A DNA stretch of 64,000 bases from Leeia speluncae (lineage in GTDB: Bacteria; Pseudomonadota; Gammaproteobacteria; Burkholderiales; Leeiaceae), in assembly GCF_020564625.1 (NCBI RefSeq), contig NZ_JAJBZT010000008.1:1-64000 (forward strand), read 5' to 3'. The position numbers and the translations under genes were made by a program. A model generated the notes under the pieces. It saw only the letters and a program-made list of their open reading frames with translations, was not told where the DNA came from and did not search any database. This document shows positions 60 through 7,396 of this stretch, one piece after another. The number at the start of each line of letters is the position of its first letter. Positions within the stretch are counted from its first letter, which is position 1.

Positions 60-1649
60 TTATTTCAGTACAACCGAGCTAATATCTAACCGTCCAAACG
101 GGCTCACTTTAAATCCACTCACGTTTGGGGTTGTCACCGCTGCATTGAGTGGGTGCGCTAGCGGAATCCATAGCCCTTGGTCACGAATAATCTTTTGAGC
201 AGCAACATACAATTTTGTACGGGTAGGGATATCCGCTGTTTTTTGACCATCTTGAATGAGCTTTTCTAGTTGAGGATCGCAGTAGCGTGCAAAGTTAGTG
301 CCTGATTGCACCGCGGCACAACTAAATTGTGGGGTTAAGAAATCATCTGGGTCTCCGTTATCGCCAACCCAACCCATAAATAGCAGGTCGTGTTCACCGG
401 CTTTGCCGCGTTTGATTAGCTCACCCCATTCCAACGTTTTAATTTCTGCTTTAATACCAATTTTTGCTAAGTCTGCTTGCAGTAGTTCTGCACCCGCCTT
501 TGGATTTGGGTTGGTAAAGGCTGAACTGCTTCTTACCCAAAGTGTAGTATCAAAGCCATTTGGAAACCCTGCTTCAGCTAACAGCTTTTTCGCTTTTGCT
601 GGATCATAAGGATAATCTGGCAGATCTTTTGCATAACTCCATGTGCTTGGTGGGTATGGGTTATTCGCAGAAGTAGCTGTACCGTTAAAGACCGTTTTTA
701 GATAGGTATTCTGATCGAATGCCAGGTTGATCGCTTGTCTAACTTTTGTGTTATCTAACGGTTTGTGTTGGGTATTAATCGCTAAAAATGCGGTACCAAA
801 TGAACTTGTGGTAACAATTTTTACCGCTTTATCTGCTTGTAAGCCTAACCATTCCTGAGGCTTTGGTGACAAGGCAATTTGGCATTCATTCGCTTTTACT
901 TTTTGAACACGTACTGCGCTATCTGGCGTAATGGCTAAAATGAGCCTATCTACATTTGTTTTTTTACCAAAGTAAGAAGGATTGGCGACATAGCGTACCA
1001 CCGCATCTTTCTGGAATGATTTCAGTACAAATGGACCGGTGCCAATTGGTTTGCTATTTAATTGGATTGCATTGCCAGATTTGAGTAGTTGGTCTGCGTA
1101 TTCTGCAGAGTAAATAGAGGCAAATCCCATCGTCAACTTACCGAGGAAGGTGGCTTCAGGTTTCGATAATTCAAATCTGACGGTATTGTTGTCTACTTTT
1201 TTAATTGACTTAATTAAAGCCGGTAATTGAAAGGATTGGGCATGTGGAAATCCATTCGGGCCGACAATCTTGGCCCATGGATGATTTGGATTAATCATTC
1301 TTTCAAATGAAAAAATCACATCATCCGCTTGTAATAGTCTTGTCGGTTTAAAGTAGTCTGTCGTTTGGAAACGTACATTTTTTCTTAAATGAAAGGTGTA
1401 ATTTAAACCATCAGCACTGACTTCCCAACGTTCTGCAAGGCTTGGTACTACCTTACTTTTAGTAGCGTCAAAATCGACTAAGCGATTAAAAATTAGATCT
1501 GCAGAGGCGTTGGTAGTCGTTAATGAGTTGTATTGCACCACATCAAAGCCTTCCGGGCTTGATTCTGTGCAAATAGTAAGTGGTTTTGCAAATGCAGCAG
1601 AGGAAAGGCTAAAAAGGGCAAGGCTAATTGCGGTGATACGGAGTCTCAT
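60..1649 (-). CDS. ABC transporter substrate-binding protein, family 5 (DppA-like dipeptide binding)
   Basis: Periplasmic solute-binding protein of the SBP_bac_5 family, which captures di- and oligopeptides or similar solutes for an ABC importer. I place the start at the ATG at 1649 because a normal Sec signal peptide follows (MRLRIT, hydrophobic core, cleavage near AFA-KP). The open frame runs further upstream, but that part codes for nothing like the family. The mature N-terminus has the DppA-type CTESSPEGFD segment, and a second cysteine pair lies near the C-terminus. The length of 529 aa matches DppA. No permease or ATPase genes adjoin it, so it is an orphan here. It ends in the terminator at 31-56. 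Family assignment is firm; the peptide substrate is inferred. Confidence 0.9.
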   Translation of the reverse strand: MRLRITAISLALFSLSSAAFAKPLTICTESSPEGFDVVQYNSLTTTNASADLIFNRLVDFDATKSKVVPSLAERWEVSADGLNYTFHLRKNVRFQTTDYFKPTRLLQADDVIFSFERMINPNHPWAKIVGPNGFPHAQSFQLPALIKSIKKVDNNTVRFELSKPEATFLGKLTMGFASIYSAEYADQLLKSGNAIQLNSKPIGTGPFVLKSFQKDAVVRYVANPSYFGKKTNVDRLILAITPDSAVRVQKVKANECQIALSPKPQEWLGLQADKAVKIVTTSSFGTAFLAINTQHKPLDNTKVRQAINLAFDQNTYLKTVFNGTATSANNPYPPSTWSYAKDLPDYPYDPAKAKKLLAEAGFPNGFDTTLWVRSSSAFTNPNPKAGAELLQADLAKIGIKAEIKTLEWGELIKRGKAGEHDLLFMGWVGDNGDPDDFLTPQFSCAAVQSGTNFARYCDPQLEKLIQDGQKTADIPTRTKLYVAAQKIIRDQGLWIPLAHPLNAAVTTPNVSGFKVSPFGRLDISSVVLK

Positions 1650-1795
1650 TCTTTGGATTCCTATCAATGATAATTGGATGACCGATTCACTGAAATGATC
1701 GGATTGAGTAATGAATATTTTATAGGCTAATGAATGTAACGCAAAGAACAGAATACGAAATGCATATTCCATTTGGCAAGAATAGTTGAGGAAAG

Positions 1796-1829
1796 TTTGA
1801 TAAAGAGGAGAAGGCTCCTCTTTATCAAA
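1796..1829 (-). terminator. strong hairpin after the signalling operon
   Basis: A perfect 15-bp inverted repeat (1796-1810 with 1815-1829) around a 4-nt loop, just past the stop of the last gene of the minus-strand signalling operon. The T-run on the minus strand is weak, so this may be a terminator or an mRNA-end stabiliser. Confidence 0.6.
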
Positions 1830-1845
1830 TATTAGAAATAGCGAA

Positions 1846-3195
1846 TTACGTGGGTTTAACCGGTTGTGAATAAACGGTAATCGTAAAGGTTTTGCCTTCC
1901 GTTCTCTCAAATTTTTGAATTTGCAAAATCTGAGGCTGGGTTAGCACATGATCATGTGATAGCAGTAATACACCATCAGGTGTTTTCAGATCATCCGCTA
2001 GTTTCATTCCCGGTTGTAAATCTGCTGAGCGAATAATCTTTGTACCGGCTGCGAGTAAGGCATCTGGTTCTTGAAGAACTAGCTCAAATATTGCAACCAC
2101 GGAAGGATCGTAACGGACTTTCTTATTTTTTTGTAAAAAGGCGAGTGCATCTTCAGGAGATAGCGAATGGCCAATGAGTGTCCCATTTCTGAGTGATTCG
2201 AAATCACTCACCACTGCTAAAATTCTCGCCCCAATAGGTATATTTTCTCCTGCTAAGCTATCAGGGAAGCCTTTTCCATCATATCGTTCGTGTTGATGGC
2301 GAATTAACTTTGCTGGGTTAGTCATTTGCTCGATCGGCATTAAGGCCATTTGTGCCTTTTCAGGATGCGTAGCAAATACTAATCGTTCTTCGGGTGTTAG
2401 TTGGTCAAATGGTTTTTTCAGAATTTCGTCTGGTAGGCTGATTTTTCCAATGGCATGGAGCAACCCTGCGATCATTAGTTCTTGTGCTTGCGCCTCGCTC
2501 AATTGCATTTTTCTCGCAAGACGACGGCCAAGTTCGCCAACACGATTCGCATTACCCGCCATTGCTCCTTCTCGCATTTCTAAGAAATTGGAGAAGACTT
2601 TAAGCATGGTAAAGAAGTTCTTTTTCAGCCTTTCTTGGGCATTTTCCAAGAACAAAACAGTTTGTCTCAGCTCTTCAGTTCTTGCATTGACCTCGCGCTC
2701 TAAATTCTCGTTTAAATGACGAAGTTTTTCATTCTGCGAATGGGTTAATGCTTCTAACCGAGCTTTTTCTTTTTCTAATTGTTGGTACTCTAACGCTTGA
2801 GCAACCGTGTGGAGTAAGTCTTGTTCTTCCCATGGTTTGGATAAATAACGATAGACCCCACCATCATTAATGGCGGCAATCGTAGAGGAAAGCTCTGAAT
2901 AACCGGTTAGAAGAATGCGTAACACATTCGGCCAGCGTGTTTTTACTTGTTTTAAAAACTCAGCGCCAGTCATATTTGGCATTCTCATATCAGAGATAAC
3001 CAAATCTACGGATTCTTCTTCTAGAATGCTTAGTCCCATTGCACCGCTTTCTGCTGTCAGGATACGATATCCGACAGGGCGAAATAACCGGCGAAGAGAG
3101 GACAGAATATTTACCTCATCGTCGACAAGTAAAATGGTAGGAACATTTTGTTCCTGACTTGCACCAGCAGCGGTTTCTGGTACTAAGGTTTCCAT
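1846..3195 (-). CDS. response regulator with degenerate HD-GYP output domain
   Basis: A 449-aa regulator. An N-terminal receiver (about residues 18-135) has the acidic pair DDE, phospho-acceptor D69 and K120. A coiled coil follows (about 138-195), then an HD-GYP-like domain (about 195-345) and a C-terminal extension. HD-GYP enzymes cleave cyclic di-GMP with a metal centre. Here the hallmark HD is HA (H247-A248), the HHE motif reads QHE, GYP reads GFP, and the upstream conserved His lies in an NANRV context. Several metal ligands therefore appear lost, and the domain is probably a binding or regulatory module rather than an active phosphodiesterase. It is the last gene of a five-gene operon, 6 bp after the HDOD gene. 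Confidence 0.88.
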   Translation of the reverse strand: METLVPETAAGASQEQNVPTILLVDDEVNILSSLRRLFRPVGYRILTAESGAMGLSILEEESVDLVISDMRMPNMTGAEFLKQVKTRWPNVLRILLTGYSELSSTIAAINDGGVYRYLSKPWEEQDLLHTVAQALEYQQLEKEKARLEALTHSQNEKLRHLNENLEREVNARTEELRQTVLFLENAQERLKKNFFTMLKVFSNFLEMREGAMAGNANRVGELGRRLARKMQLSEAQAQELMIAGLLHAIGKISLPDEILKKPFDQLTPEERLVFATHPEKAQMALMPIEQMTNPAKLIRHQHERYDGKGFPDSLAGENIPIGARILAVVSDFESLRNGTLIGHSLSPEDALAFLQKNKKVRYDPSVVAIFELVLQEPDALLAAGTKIIRSADLQPGMKLADDLKTPDGVLLLSHDHVLTQPQILQIQKFERTEGKTFTITVYSQPVKPT

Positions 3196-3201
3196 GATCC
3201 T

Positions 3202-4029
3202 TTACTCCATTAAAATGGCATCAACTTGATGACTAATCACTTCTAACTGATTTTTCCAATTAGCCATTTTCTCTTGGTCTAATCCAAGAAAGCGAATTAA
3301 ATCCCCCGGAAGTTGATCAATCGGAGAAAACGTTTCTGCAGCGGTTGGACAGGTGTAGTATCCCACCAACTCTTCAGCACAAAATACAACGCCAGCGACC
3401 GGTCCAATGGTTGCTGCTTCACCCACATGATGACTTTTAATCGCCTGAATGATCGGCTCTGGGAAATGCCAGTTTAATGCTAATTGTGAGCCTAATTCAG
3501 TATGATCAAATCCAAAGAAAGATTGCTCCTTCGCTAAAATCCCTGGGCCGTGGCATTCCTCATGAACCAAGCTCACAAATTGATCAGGGAATTCTGTAAA
3601 CAGTACTAACGTACCAACATCATGCAATAAGCCCGCAACAAAGCTAATCTCTTTCTGACAGCCCGTTTTTTCGGCCAACCATTCTGCACAATACGCAATC
3701 ATCAGATTGTCTTTCCAAAAGTGCATTAAGTCCTTTTGATCTTTTGCTTGCTGGCTGAGTGAAATACTAATAGCTAGTTTTTTCACGGTGCTCATGCCTA
3801 ATACCAGTATAGCACTTTGAATACTGGCTACTTTAGACGACATCCCAAAGAATGAAGAATTAGCGAGCTTTAGCAATCTGGCGGATAAGGCGGGATCATT
3901 TCCGATTTGATGCGCTAAAGTTTCTAATGTGGTTTCTTCTTTGTCCAACTGTTGAATTAAGGAAATAATCACATGTTGCGAGCTAGTCAAAATCTGCTGT
4001 TGTTGGATGATTTCATCAATCGTTTTCAT
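3202..4029 (-). CDS. HDOD domain protein
   Basis: A 275-aa protein made almost wholly of an HDOD domain, a non-catalytic relative of HD hydrolases found in bacterial signalling proteins. Typical segments are NDPALSARLLKLANSS, then SIQSAILVLGMSTVKKLA, and a later GLLHDVGTLVLF and HHVGEAA. There is no receiver or other output domain. Its ATG overlaps the stop of the upstream receiver-PAS gene in an ATGA arrangement (4026-4029), which suggests translational coupling. Its place between two response regulators suggests it acts as an adaptor in the same circuit; this is inferred. Confidence 0.88.
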   Translation of the reverse strand: MKTIDEIIQQQQILTSSQHVIISLIQQLDKEETTLETLAHQIGNDPALSARLLKLANSSFFGMSSKVASIQSAILVLGMSTVKKLAISISLSQQAKDQKDLMHFWKDNLMIAYCAEWLAEKTGCQKEISFVAGLLHDVGTLVLFTEFPDQFVSLVHEECHGPGILAKEQSFFGFDHTELGSQLALNWHFPEPIIQAIKSHHVGEAATIGPVAGVVFCAEELVGYYTCPTAAETFSPIDQLPGDLIRFLGLDQEKMANWKNQLEVISHQVDAILME

Positions 4030-4823
4030 GATGAACCCTCCATGGGATCTGGCATGAGTACAAATAATCTTCCTCTAACCGATTGTTCGGTATGGGCTAA
4101 ATCTTGTACCTGTACCCAAATTTTTTGCTGATTAATCATGATGGCGCTAGATTTTGCATTACTTTCCAGAGAAAGCATCTCTGAAGGTAATAGGGCGTCC
4201 GCTGATTGACCCGGCATGCTAATTTGGTTGAATATTTTTTCTGCACTCAAATTGGCTAATACAATATCGCCTTCCATCGAAACGCCGATTAAGCCAACCG
4301 GTAAGCTCTCAATAATCGCTTGCGTGGTTTCTAATGCTTCTACATTTATTTTGTTAAATTGCTCACTTAGCATCAGTTGCAATTCAGCTTGGGTAGATAG
4401 CAGCTCATTTGCTTCTAACAAGTCTTGTTGCAAAATCTTGTTTTGGATCAGAATGTCATGAATTCGAAATGCATCCGTCACGGTTGCACGTAAAAAGTCA
4501 TCATCCCAAGGCTTGGTAAGAAATTTATAGATAGAGCCTTCATTAATCGCATCGGTGACCGATTTCAAATCGGTATAGCCAGAGAGAACAATCCGAATAC
4601 TATCTGGGCAAATTTCTTTTGCTTTGGCTAAAAACTGTACGCCAGTCATGCCTGGCATCCGTTGATCAGAAATAATGACCCCGGGTTGATGGTCTTTTAA
4701 GATCTCAAGCCCCGCAGCCCCGCCAACAGCACGATGAATCTCATACCCATCTTGCCTTAGTAATCTATACAAGGCGGAAAGGATATTTTCTTCATCATCA
4801 ACAAGAAGAATGGTCTGAGCCAT
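4026..4823 (-). CDS. response regulator, receiver plus PAS-like domain
   Basis: A 265-aa regulator. The receiver (about residues 1-120) has the DDEE acidic pocket, the phospho-acceptor Asp in the ISDQRMPG motif and the conserved Lys in TKPWDD. A helical linker follows, then a PAS-like segment (IIESLPVGLIGVSMEGDIVLAN). No DNA-binding or enzymatic output is visible. The start at 4823 has a good TGAGGAAA ribosome-binding site seven bases upstream and leaves 10 bp after the preceding gene. A longer in-frame start would overlap that gene and lacks this site. It probably receives phosphate from the kinase at 5363-7396. Confidence 0.87.
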   Translation of the reverse strand: MAQTILLVDDEENILSALYRLLRQDGYEIHRAVGGAAGLEILKDHQPGVIISDQRMPGMTGVQFLAKAKEICPDSIRIVLSGYTDLKSVTDAINEGSIYKFLTKPWDDDFLRATVTDAFRIHDILIQNKILQQDLLEANELLSTQAELQLMLSEQFNKINVEALETTQAIIESLPVGLIGVSMEGDIVLANLSAEKIFNQISMPGQSADALLPSEMLSLESNAKSSAIMINQQKIWVQVQDLAHTEQSVRGRLFVLMPDPMEGSS

Positions 4824-4833
4824 TTTCGTTTCC

Positions 4834-5370
4834 TCAGGTGTTCTGTTGTTTTTCAACAGGGAGATTAGAGCTATCTAGGATGATATTTTCTGCATGAACG
4901 GGGGAAATATCGCCTGCTGTTTCAAAGCCCGCTAATAGTTTGCGCATTTCATCCGCTAGATTTTTGTTCTCTCGTTTAATGGTGATATCGGCTAAAACCT
5001 CTAAGACATGAGTAATTAACTCTACATCATTCCATGGTTTTGTCACAAAACGGCTAATACCCACTTCGTTGATTGCCCTTAAAATTGCCTGCATATCTGC
5101 TTGTCCAGACAAAATAATCGATGCAGTTAAGGGCTGAATCAGGTTTAGATTTCTTAAAAAATCGACCCCATTCATTTCCGGCATCCGATAATCCGAAATC
5201 ACTAAATCAATTGGATGCGTTTTAGCGTAGGTGAGTGCCTCTACTGGCGAATCAAAAATATCCAAGCTAATTTGAAAAGCAGATTGATCTGCTTTGGTTA
5301 AAAAGCTTAGCTCTCGTTTAACCGCATGGAGTACATTTTTTTCATCATCAACCAGAATGACTTTATGCAT
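4834..5370 (-). CDS. single-domain response regulator
   Basis: A 178-aa protein with one receiver domain (about residues 1-125: DDEKN acidic pair, phospho-acceptor in VISDYRMPEM, Lys in VTKPWND) and a short C-terminal tail of about 50 residues with no recognised output domain. Its start overlaps the kinase stop by 8 bp, so the two are probably co-translated. A bare receiver beside a kinase usually acts by protein contact or as a phosphate shuttle. With the two other receivers in this operon it points to a branched phosphorelay. Confidence 0.87.
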   Translation of the reverse strand: MHKVILVDDEKNVLHAVKRELSFLTKADQSAFQISLDIFDSPVEALTYAKTHPIDLVISDYRMPEMNGVDFLRNLNLIQPLTASIILSGQADMQAILRAINEVGISRFVTKPWNDVELITHVLEVLADITIKRENKNLADEMRKLLAGFETAGDISPVHAENIILDSSNLPVEKQQNT

Positions 5371-7396
5371 TTTCTACTTCTCCTTCGGCTTCTTGTATAT
5401 TCACTTCACGTTTGATGGGTAGATGAATCGTAAAGCAGGTGCCCACGCCCACTGTACTTTCTACATCGATATGGCCGCCGAGTTTCTTCATAATGCCAAA
5501 GACAAGAGACAAGCCAAGGCCAGTGCCTTGACCAACTGGTTTAGTGGTAAAGAAGGGTTCAAAAATTCGTTTGAGATTTTCTTCCGAGATGCCATTGCCT
5601 GTGTCTCGAATAGATAACCACACATGCTGATCATCTTTTATGCCGCTACTAATGGTAATTGTCCCAAAACTATCCATGGCTTGCGCTGCATTGACTAAGA
5701 TATTCAGGAATACTTGGTTTAATTGGGATGGAATGGTTTCGATGCTAGGTAGTTCGGCATAATTTTTAATGACTTCCGCTTTGTATTTAATTTCATTCCA
5801 AACCACATTCAGTGTCGAATCCATCCCCTTGTGAACATCTACTACTAACCATTCTCCTTCATCTACATGAGAAAAGTCTTTTAGGTCCTGCACGATATGT
5901 TTAACACGTTGGATACCATCTTTTGATTCAGTGAGTAAGGCGGAAATGTCTTCCAATAAAAATTCTAAATCGACAGTCTTTTTCGCTTTCACTAAGGAGG
6001 CTTGAATGTCTGCTGGCAGTTGTTTCTCCGCCTCTTGGTATTCATCAATGAGCTTTTGAATATCCAAGAAATACTTGCCTAAAGTATTGAGATTGGAAGC
6101 CACAAAGCCGGTTGGGTTGTTAATTTCGTGCGCAACACCGGCTGCTAGCTGACCAATCGCTGCCATTTTTTCAGACTGTAACAGTTGGCTTTGTGTATGT
6201 TCCAATTGCTGGATTAACTTACGTTGCTCTTCTTGTTCTTTTAGTAGTTTCTTCTCGGCTTCTTTACGTTCGGTAATATCTCGAATCACCGCTACCGCAT
6301 GCCATTGGCCATTACGCTGAGTTGAGGTAATCGATACTTCCACAGGAAAGGTTTCCCCTTGGTTATCTCTTGTGATCACCTCTACCGTTTTGCCTACTAA
6401 ATTGGCCGAACCTGCTAAAGTAAGATCAATCCCCGTTTCTTTTTTGTTCCCTGTATCTGGTTGAATCAGGTCATTCAGTATCCGTCCCAGCGCTTCAGAT
6501 TCGGTATACCCAAAGATGTTGCTAGCAGCAGGGTTCCATAACTCGATTTCGCCTTGTCCATCCATCATGATAATGCCGTCTAAAGCACTCTGAATCACAC
6601 TCGATAACATTGCTCTCGAATCAATTAAGGCGTGTTCAGCACTTTGGCGCTCCAGCACTTCTTCAACCAAGGAGGCTTGAGTTTCTTTTAACTCTTTAAT
6701 CAAATTATCTTGTTCTGCTTGCCTTGCCAATAATTCAGATTCCGCATGTTTGCGGGCAGAGATGTCTCTTAACATCATCTGCAGCATAAAACCTTCTTCT
6801 AAATGCATATTGTTGACGACCACTTCGGCAGGGAACCGGCTGCCATCCATTTTTTGAAATTCAAACTCAAAGCGGTGCCGCCCCTTACGGATGCAAGTCT
6901 TTAATTCTTTTAGGAATTTTGTGAAAGAATGACTACCATCTGGTTGATGTCTTGGGAAAAAATCTTTTAATTTTCTATTCAGTAATTCGCCCGATTCTTT
7001 CGCTGCAAACATAGATTGGGCAGCATGATTCACTTCTGCTACACCGTGGCGATTAATCACAAAAACGCCATCTAAATTAGAAAGAAACAGCATTTCAAAT
7101 CGCTCGGCCATTTGCCAGATTTCCATCTGGGCCTGTTCTCTTTGTAATTCGGCTTCTGCTTTTTGTTGTTCTAGCGTTTTTTGCTTTAGGGCGAGTTCAT
7201 CGATATGCCGTAGTAAGACATACACGCCACCCCAAATGAGCACCGTAAAGACAAGCAAGAAGAAAAGGGACTGGCTAACCGCGCCAATTAAGACATTTAA
7301 GATTAGCGATAATAAAATGATGACTAAATGATTAGCGGAGAGGTGCGATGGCAAACGCATGAGACGTCTCCTTTTAGGTATTTTTTCGTTCTCCAT
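5363..7396 (-). CDS. membrane PAS-PAS sensor histidine kinase
   Basis: A 677-aa kinase. Two close transmembrane helices near the N-terminus (about residues 22-62) leave almost no periplasmic loop, so sensing is probably in the membrane or cytoplasm. A short coiled coil, a first PAS domain (about 95-220), a second coiled coil and a second PAS (about 255-380) follow. Next come the dimerisation/phospho-acceptor segment with the H-box (GQLAAGVAHEINNPTGF) and the HATPase domain with N, G1 (DTGNGIS), F and G2 (GTGLGLSLV) boxes. It heads the minus-strand operon with three receivers and an HDOD protein. The signal is unknown. Confidence 0.92.
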   Translation of the reverse strand: MENEKIPKRRRLMRLPSHLSANHLVIILLSLILNVLIGAVSQSLFFLLVFTVLIWGGVYVLLRHIDELALKQKTLEQQKAEAELQREQAQMEIWQMAERFEMLFLSNLDGVFVINRHGVAEVNHAAQSMFAAKESGELLNRKLKDFFPRHQPDGSHSFTKFLKELKTCIRKGRHRFEFEFQKMDGSRFPAEVVVNNMHLEEGFMLQMMLRDISARKHAESELLARQAEQDNLIKELKETQASLVEEVLERQSAEHALIDSRAMLSSVIQSALDGIIMMDGQGEIELWNPAASNIFGYTESEALGRILNDLIQPDTGNKKETGIDLTLAGSANLVGKTVEVITRDNQGETFPVEVSITSTQRNGQWHAVAVIRDITERKEAEKKLLKEQEEQRKLIQQLEHTQSQLLQSEKMAAIGQLAAGVAHEINNPTGFVASNLNTLGKYFLDIQKLIDEYQEAEKQLPADIQASLVKAKKTVDLEFLLEDISALLTESKDGIQRVKHIVQDLKDFSHVDEGEWLVVDVHKGMDSTLNVVWNEIKYKAEVIKNYAELPSIETIPSQLNQVFLNILVNAAQAMDSFGTITISSGIKDDQHVWLSIRDTGNGISEENLKRIFEPFFTTKPVGQGTGLGLSLVFGIMKKLGGHIDVESTVGVGTCFTIHLPIKREVNIQEAEGEVENA

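Follow-up and report, generated by a model that had tools for sequence, protein, structure and literature searches.

Degenerate HD-GYP proteins of the NosR and HnoD types are already in print, and the protein described here is a further case. In Burkholderia pseudomallei, the HD-GYP signature of NosR (BPSS1648) is altered to HG-GTP, and the protein is presented as a likely inactive REC-HD-GYP response regulator; NosK phosphorylates it, and inhibition of a PDE or activation of a DGC has been hypothesised as its function (PMC12570481). HnoD of Shewanella oneidensis is described in reviews as lacking PDE activity and as suppressing the EAL protein HnoB (PMC6335343, PMC8846402). In DvhD of Desulfovibrio vulgaris (9RBZ), a dead HD-GYP domain that reads SQ for HD and MN for HH is reported to bind c-di-GMP without metal, the crystal itself being metal-free (PMC13090378). 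Herein we compare with these systems a response regulator gene of Leeia speluncae, located in a stretch of 64,000 nucleotides (contig NZ_JAJBZT010000008.1, positions 1 to 64,000) that we refer to as the window.

The gene and its operon

The gene lies on the minus strand at window positions 1846–3195 as a single open frame of 449 amino acids with an ATG start and no internal stops. Pfam matched Response_reg at residues 21–131 and HD_5 at residues 199–366 (E 2.6e-46), and a long helix joins the receiver to the HD-GYP-like domain (HD-GYP* below). The NCBIfam model NF053512 (nitric_RR_NosR, "response regulator c-di-GMP phosphodiesterase, NosR family"), which we take from its name to be called after B. 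pseudomallei NosR, matched with 581.1 bits (cut-off 400) along positions 1–422 of its 422, and its REC + HD_5 architecture is present in the protein. A wrong reading frame or a frameshift was ruled out by the intact frame together with this full-length family match. The features of the gene and its operon are as follows.

1846–3195, minus strand: REC–coiled coil–HD-GYP* response regulator with a degraded metal site (NF053512 match, PmGH alignment, AF2 model)
2803–3135, minus strand: receiver domain, residues 21–131, with D25, D26, D69, T97 and K120 present (Pfam Response_reg and alignment)
2098–2601, minus strand: HD-GYP* domain, residues 199–366, with N215, H247-A248, K251, H277, Q301-H302, F310 and S330 (Pfam HD_5 and alignment)
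1849–2070, minus strand: C-terminal extension, residues 376–449, with the family-conserved pattern L..GM.L..DL...G.LLL (family alignment)
3202–4029, minus strand: HDOD-domain protein, 275 aa, with a 6 bp gap before the HD-GYP* gene (Pfam)
4026–4823, minus strand: receiver–PAS-like response regulator, 265 aa (Pfam; PAS match below the Pfam cut-off)
4834–5370, minus strand: single-receiver response regulator, 178 aa (Pfam)
5363–7396, minus strand: PAS-PAS sensor histidine kinase, 677 aa, with a hydrophobic N-terminus and a HEINN box, both judged by eye (Pfam)

The HD-GYP* gene is the last of this compact five-gene minus-strand run, whose spacings are −8, +10, −4 and +6 bp; the kinase and single-receiver genes share 8 bp and the receiver–PAS and HDOD genes 4 bp, with 4823 being the start that we chose for the receiver–PAS gene (the frame listing has a TTG at 4856). 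The 677-aa PAS-PAS protein is likely the operon's kinase. According to Pfam, none of the five proteins carries a GGDEF, EAL or intact HD-GYP domain, unlike the operons of many relatives, and none has a FIST or HNOB domain at E ≤ 0.001, on which ground NO sensing by the operon was rejected. The neighbouring 616-aa listed frame (window 60–1910) looks by eye like a periplasmic substrate-binding protein with a likely start near 1649 and the signal peptide MRLRITAISLALFSLSSAAFA, and overlaps the HD-GYP* gene solely via an upstream TTG.

Metal ligands compared with PmGH

The protein was aligned with PmGH (structure 4mcw) and with NosR-family relatives, using the ligand list and mutant data published for PmGH (PMC4159591). 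Five of the eight PmGH metal ligands are lost (E185 to A211, H189 to N215, D222 to A248, H276 to Q301 and D305 to S330) and three are kept (H221 as H247, H250 as H277 and H277 as H302), while the PmGH residue K225 is retained as K251 and Y285 corresponds to F310. H247-A248 stands in place of the HD dyad, and the HHExxDGxGYP motif reads QHERYDGKGFP, of which the Y-to-F part does not discriminate. In the data given for PmGH, alanine mutants of H189, H221, D222, H250, H276 and H277 had essentially no activity left, those of E185 and D305 were merely reduced, and those of Y285, R314 and K317 were without substantial reduction; RpfG is listed there as an active enzyme lacking both E185 and H189 (PMC4159591).

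Read against these mutants, the decisive losses in our alignment are D222 (A248) and H276 (Q301); N215, S330 and A211 add weight, and F310 does not. The original prediction, made from the sequence alone, had listed HD to HA, HHE to QHE, GYP to GFP and the upstream His to Asn, and the alignment with PmGH and the family bore out all four substitutions (H247-A248, Q301-H302-E303, G309-F310-P311 and N215). The last two are weak signs of inactivation, however, because F is common in intact relatives (15 of the 59 with all five essential ligands; Y in 44) and PmGH Y285A is not substantially impaired, and because active RpfG also lacks H189; GFP was consequently rejected as evidence. To say that the protein "has lost its metal ligands" was a little too strong with three of the eight kept, although the five lost include E185 and D305, which had gone unlisted. 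The claim that the receiver keeps its phospho-acceptor stood (D69, with D25/D26, T97 and K120), and a pseudo-phosphodiesterase is still the best reading, given that H189, D222 and H276, essential in PmGH, appear to be gone. With the three remaining ligand histidines and K251, the protein could possibly still hold metal in a diminished site or have some other activity.

Position within the NosR family

In a sample of 399 genomes drawn evenly from the larger order, 69 had a match over the NF053512 cut-off, giving 71 rows of 457 to 596 bits among which the window protein ranks 14th by E-value. The tree was built from 85 rows, namely these 71 plus 14 named proteins, with eleven motif columns removed and no outgroup; since the 14 came from a pattern scan favouring A[GA]LLH[DAE][IV]GK, the 71 rows, and not the 85, are the ones from which the frequency of degeneracy should be taken. 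Three aligned proteins did not enter the tree, namely L158 and L159, which are partial and score below the cut-off, and the distant L178; L174 and L179–L242, which are partial or distant, were unused.

The window protein (genome G000) falls into a seven-row clade with its congeners G001 and G002 and four others, supported by an SH-aLRT of 100 in the quick tree and by 100/100 in the careful one. The four are from Burkholderia sp. BCC0506, Paraburkholderia dilworthii, G284 (adjoining BCC0506 and from its closeness probably a Burkholderia) and G177, which belongs to another family. All but G177 show HG...GTP, and G177 has HG...GVP. H276 and D305 are gone in all seven rows and D222 in six, a pattern that, judged from the tree, is one of common descent. 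The exception is G001, which keeps HD and reads S for H189, Q for H276 and V for D305, so that the window genus holds two proteins without HD beside one with it, and G001 is possibly an intermediate in ligand loss.

The nearest known relative of the window protein thus appears to be Burkholderia NosR, a link made by motif and genus, as one clade joins the protein to BCC0506, P. dilworthii and G284 with NosR's HG...GTP. Both are REC-HD-GYP proteins that have lost HD (HG in NosR, HA here), the window protein matches NF053512 at full length, and the HEINN box of NosK (as given in PMC12570481) also occurs in the window operon's kinase. Unlike the NosR system, the window operon is without NosP (FIST); its kinase is of the PAS-PAS type, an HDOD gene and two additional receivers are present, and the window protein differs in having GFP for GTP and N for H189.

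Among 61 genomes of the G284 genus, 44 yielded a total of 46 rows over the cut-off, and all 30 of the rows that we read as loci show the same dead signature of HG, Q-Y for HH, GTP and R for D305. No FIST gene was found within 1.5 kb of these 30 loci (phmmer with three seeds from G000, a search of limited reach), nor any Pfam FIST match in the eight genomes chosen from the genus; the dead protein therefore persists in this sample without NosP, and the NosP linkage published for B. pseudomallei was not seen for these sister proteins. In two of the 61 genomes (G404 and G428), the NosR-family match is split, with a stop codon in one of them, and the genes are probably broken. G449 has three over-cut-off copies, one of which (L275) has E at the H189 position. 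In the P. dilworthii locus (L167, 7173–7862), a 229-aa protein that is CheC-like by eye has a PAS-type kinase on one side and the gene for the dead REC-HD-GYP on the other.

HnoD, which the original prediction had offered as precedent, resembles the window protein in being a response regulator with a degenerate HD-GYP domain, as far as the review descriptions allow comparison (PMC6335343, PMC8846402), and is apt as a mechanism, but it appears to be the deeper analogue. The window operon differs in having no EAL gene, and HNOB (H-NOX) had no match in the window genome (E ≤ 0.001) or in the two congeners. Pseudoalteromonas and Marinobacterium proteins are 31–33% identical to the window protein. 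One of them, L176 from Pseudoalteromonas rubra, is a REC-HD-GYP that branches deeply in the 85-row tree, has AQ for HD and is encoded beside an H-NOX gene: the HNOB match in G460 at 229574–230053 coincides with a divergent 180-aa frame of L176 at 229514–230056, the contig being the same to judge from the coordinates. NosR-type and HnoD-type proteins may, on these grounds, form one broad kin group. Taken together, the original observation was right, and its interpretation, which we regard as partly supported, was right in kind, with the nearest relative and the weight of the individual losses now corrected.

Recurrent ligand loss across the family

We called a row degenerate when any of H221, D222, H250, H276 or H277 was missing; H189, though essential in PmGH, was left out of the definition because RpfG does without it. 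By this measure, 17 of the 71 order-sample rows and 26 of the 85 tree rows are degenerate. The tree requires at least 11 (quick) or at least 12 (careful) changes, which, with no outgroup, are minimum counts without direction. All 59 non-degenerate rows keep H189 and have only Y (44) or F (15) at the GYP position, and the intact and degenerate states are therefore clearly split. In the 26 degenerate rows, H276 is replaced by Q in 18, for which the quick tree needs at least five changes to Q; 22 rows retain K225, and both D at position 306 and the receiver Asp are kept in all 26.

Changes at other positions extend to the intact rows. D305 is N in 57 and D in 4 of the 85 rows (N 53 and D 4 among the 59 intact ones), and position 306 is D in 44 and E in 10 of the 59. 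The guanine-binding R-x-Y loop occurs in none of the 59 intact rows, with a looser R..[KR] in 6, as against five of the seven other HD_5 proteins of the window genome, where one of the misses is a match that ends inside the loop. Four proteins (L150, L151, L155 and L156) stand apart from the others of the 85-row set with D at D305, A at 306 and H for K225. It is a tentative idea, which we would not favour at present, that canonical c-di-GMP hydrolysis has been given up across the entire NosR family, which would be a receiver-gated subfamily retuned for binding proteins or another nucleotide, with repeated ligand loss. The open-licence literature searched contained no report of the family-wide D305 change or of recurrent loss in the NosR family.

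Gene neighbourhoods of relatives and candidate partners

Many relatives have a same-direction GGDEF-EAL gene upstream of the REC-HD-GYP gene. Such an upstream EAL gene is rarer beside degenerate rows (6/26) than beside intact ones (35/59; Fisher p 0.002), as is a downstream receiver gene (6/26 versus 38/59, p 0.0008), whereas an upstream HDOD gene shows no association with degeneracy (10/26 versus 31/59, p 0.25). In these counts, the rows are not phylogenetically independent (three starred pairs), eight tree rows have less than 5 kb of upstream sequence, which makes gene absences there weak, and the central gene of L163 was mis-picked as an overlapping frame. The EAL counts, though from rows that are not independent, go against an operonic EAL protein as the target of the dead domain, and we regard that target as unsupported. 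In L088–L157, a recurrent module consists of a GGDEF-EAL gene with receiver, a receiver–PAS gene, an HDOD gene, a histidine kinase gene and the REC-HD-GYP gene, followed by a gene for a ~183-aa receiver protein; we met no description of it in the literature searched.

Elsewhere in the window genome, matches over the cut-off comprise 7 other HD_5, 28 EAL and 45 GGDEF, and there are three FIST matches on contigs C6, C4 and C11. The C6 FIST gene belongs to a distinct gene run (L160, 4006–8939), which encodes an intact 350-aa REC-HD-GYP with all PmGH ligands and RPYK, a 382-aa FIST protein (NosP-like) and an 898-aa hybrid kinase whose receivers and HPt-like end were judged by eye. This REC-HD-GYP and PmGH share the HD-GYP fold or family with the window protein and, unlike it, both have HD, HH, D305 and RPYK. 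On C7, a frame at 159929–161689 matches a REC-GGDEF-EAL probe nearly end to end at 29% identity. The C6 REC-HD-GYP, the C7 REC-GGDEF-EAL-like protein and the neighbouring HDOD protein are candidate partners of the window protein.

Conservation within the genus

The window protein is 77% identical to its counterpart in G002 and 69% to that in G001, with values of 81% and 70% for the receiver and 79% and 70% for the HD-GYP* domain. The other operon products reach 69/63% (histidine kinase), 64/61% (single receiver), 64/51% (receiver–PAS) and 54/46% (HDOD) against G002/G001. HD-GYP* also has the lowest pN/pS among the compared stretches (0.15 and 0.21), a rough measure here since synonymous sites are saturated (pS > 1 for two stretches). 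These values point to purifying selection on a domain that, by alignment, has no complete active site.

Proposed mechanism and alternatives

We consider it most likely that the HD-GYP* domain has lost c-di-GMP hydrolysis, and we give a probability of roughly 60% to the reading in which this NosR-family response regulator is an adaptor or inhibitor gated by phosphorylation. D69 would receive its phosphoryl group from the PAS histidine kinase of the operon or from a different kinase. A dimer linked by the coiled coil would then pack differently, and the dead HD-GYP domain would bind or release a partner, which may be the neighbouring HDOD protein or a c-di-GMP enzyme from another locus of the genome. 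Such a role would resemble the one described for HnoD, the tested precedent, and the one that has been hypothesised for NosR in B. pseudomallei. In its favour are the ligand losses, including D222 and H276, the intact frame and receiver, the conserved operon with its kinase and the HD-GYP fold in the AF2 model; against it count the operon's lack of GGDEF, EAL and intact HD-GYP genes, the rarity of upstream EAL genes in degenerate rows, and the HD kept by G001.

The predicted structure bears on a different role, in which the dead pocket would bind c-di-GMP without hydrolysing it and signal how much of it is present via the coiled coil and receiver, much as DvhD uses helices of its own. The AF2 model, made from nine sequences, has a mean pLDDT of 83.7 and keeps the HD-GYP fold, and its best Foldseek match is c-di-GMP-bound DvhD (TMt 0.82), with PA4781 at 0.77 and Bd1817 at 0.46; VIA-align gave Z 24.0 for DvhD and 22.9 for PA4781. 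The 50 rows of VIA-align are mostly receiver domains, and Bd1817 is not among them, an absence that carries no information on Bd1817. The likeness to DvhD thus extends from the fold to the lost metal ligands, with the SQ, MN and metal-free crystal of DvhD showing that such a pocket can bind. DvhD, however, is a membrane dCache-PAS receptor and not a response regulator, and its R/Y c-di-GMP loop is absent in the window protein: the nucleotide-contacting residues of DvhD, R650 and Y652, have T339 and I341 as their counterparts, and together with R314 and K317 of PmGH they fall on T339, I341 and G342. The absence of the R-x-Y loop from all intact family rows, compared with the other HD_5 proteins of the genome, points the same way and is not decisive, given that PmGH R314A and K317A were not substantially lower in activity. 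A c-di-GMP receptor is accordingly an unlikely reading, yet clearly the strongest competitor.

It is much less probable that the protein is still catalytic, perhaps on another phosphoester, through a remodelled metal site of H247, H277, H302, K251 and D331. The positions of H221, H250, H277 and K225 are kept, D stands at 306 in every degenerate row, and RpfG works without E185 and H189 (PMC4159591). But the bridging ligand D222 and H276 are gone, each of which left PmGH dead when changed to Ala in the published assays (PMC4159591), and D306 is found in most intact rows as well and is therefore no compensating change. Least probable of all, and in our judgement very improbable, is a gene decaying on its way to loss with its role taken by other PDEs. 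The 28 EAL and 7 further HD_5 matches of the genome would provide the redundancy, and the split copies in 2/61 G284-genus genomes are probably broken. The dead domain nevertheless sits in the operon's best-conserved protein within the genus, and the gene is therefore not decaying; the dead signature is, moreover, uniform in 30/30 G284-genus loci, and we rejected a decaying pseudogene.

The ligand losses have consequences for annotation. Assigned by HMM score, the name "c-di-GMP phosphodiesterase" is probably wrong for the window protein, for 17 of the 71 order-sample rows and for all 30 G284-genus loci, and it is doubtful for many NosR-family members, because nearly all of them have replaced D305 and the guanine-binding loop. 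Within the NosR family, intact and dead response regulators can be compared as matched pairs. The family is a good system in which to ask how a signalling enzyme turns into a regulator, and which binding partners its dead version has.
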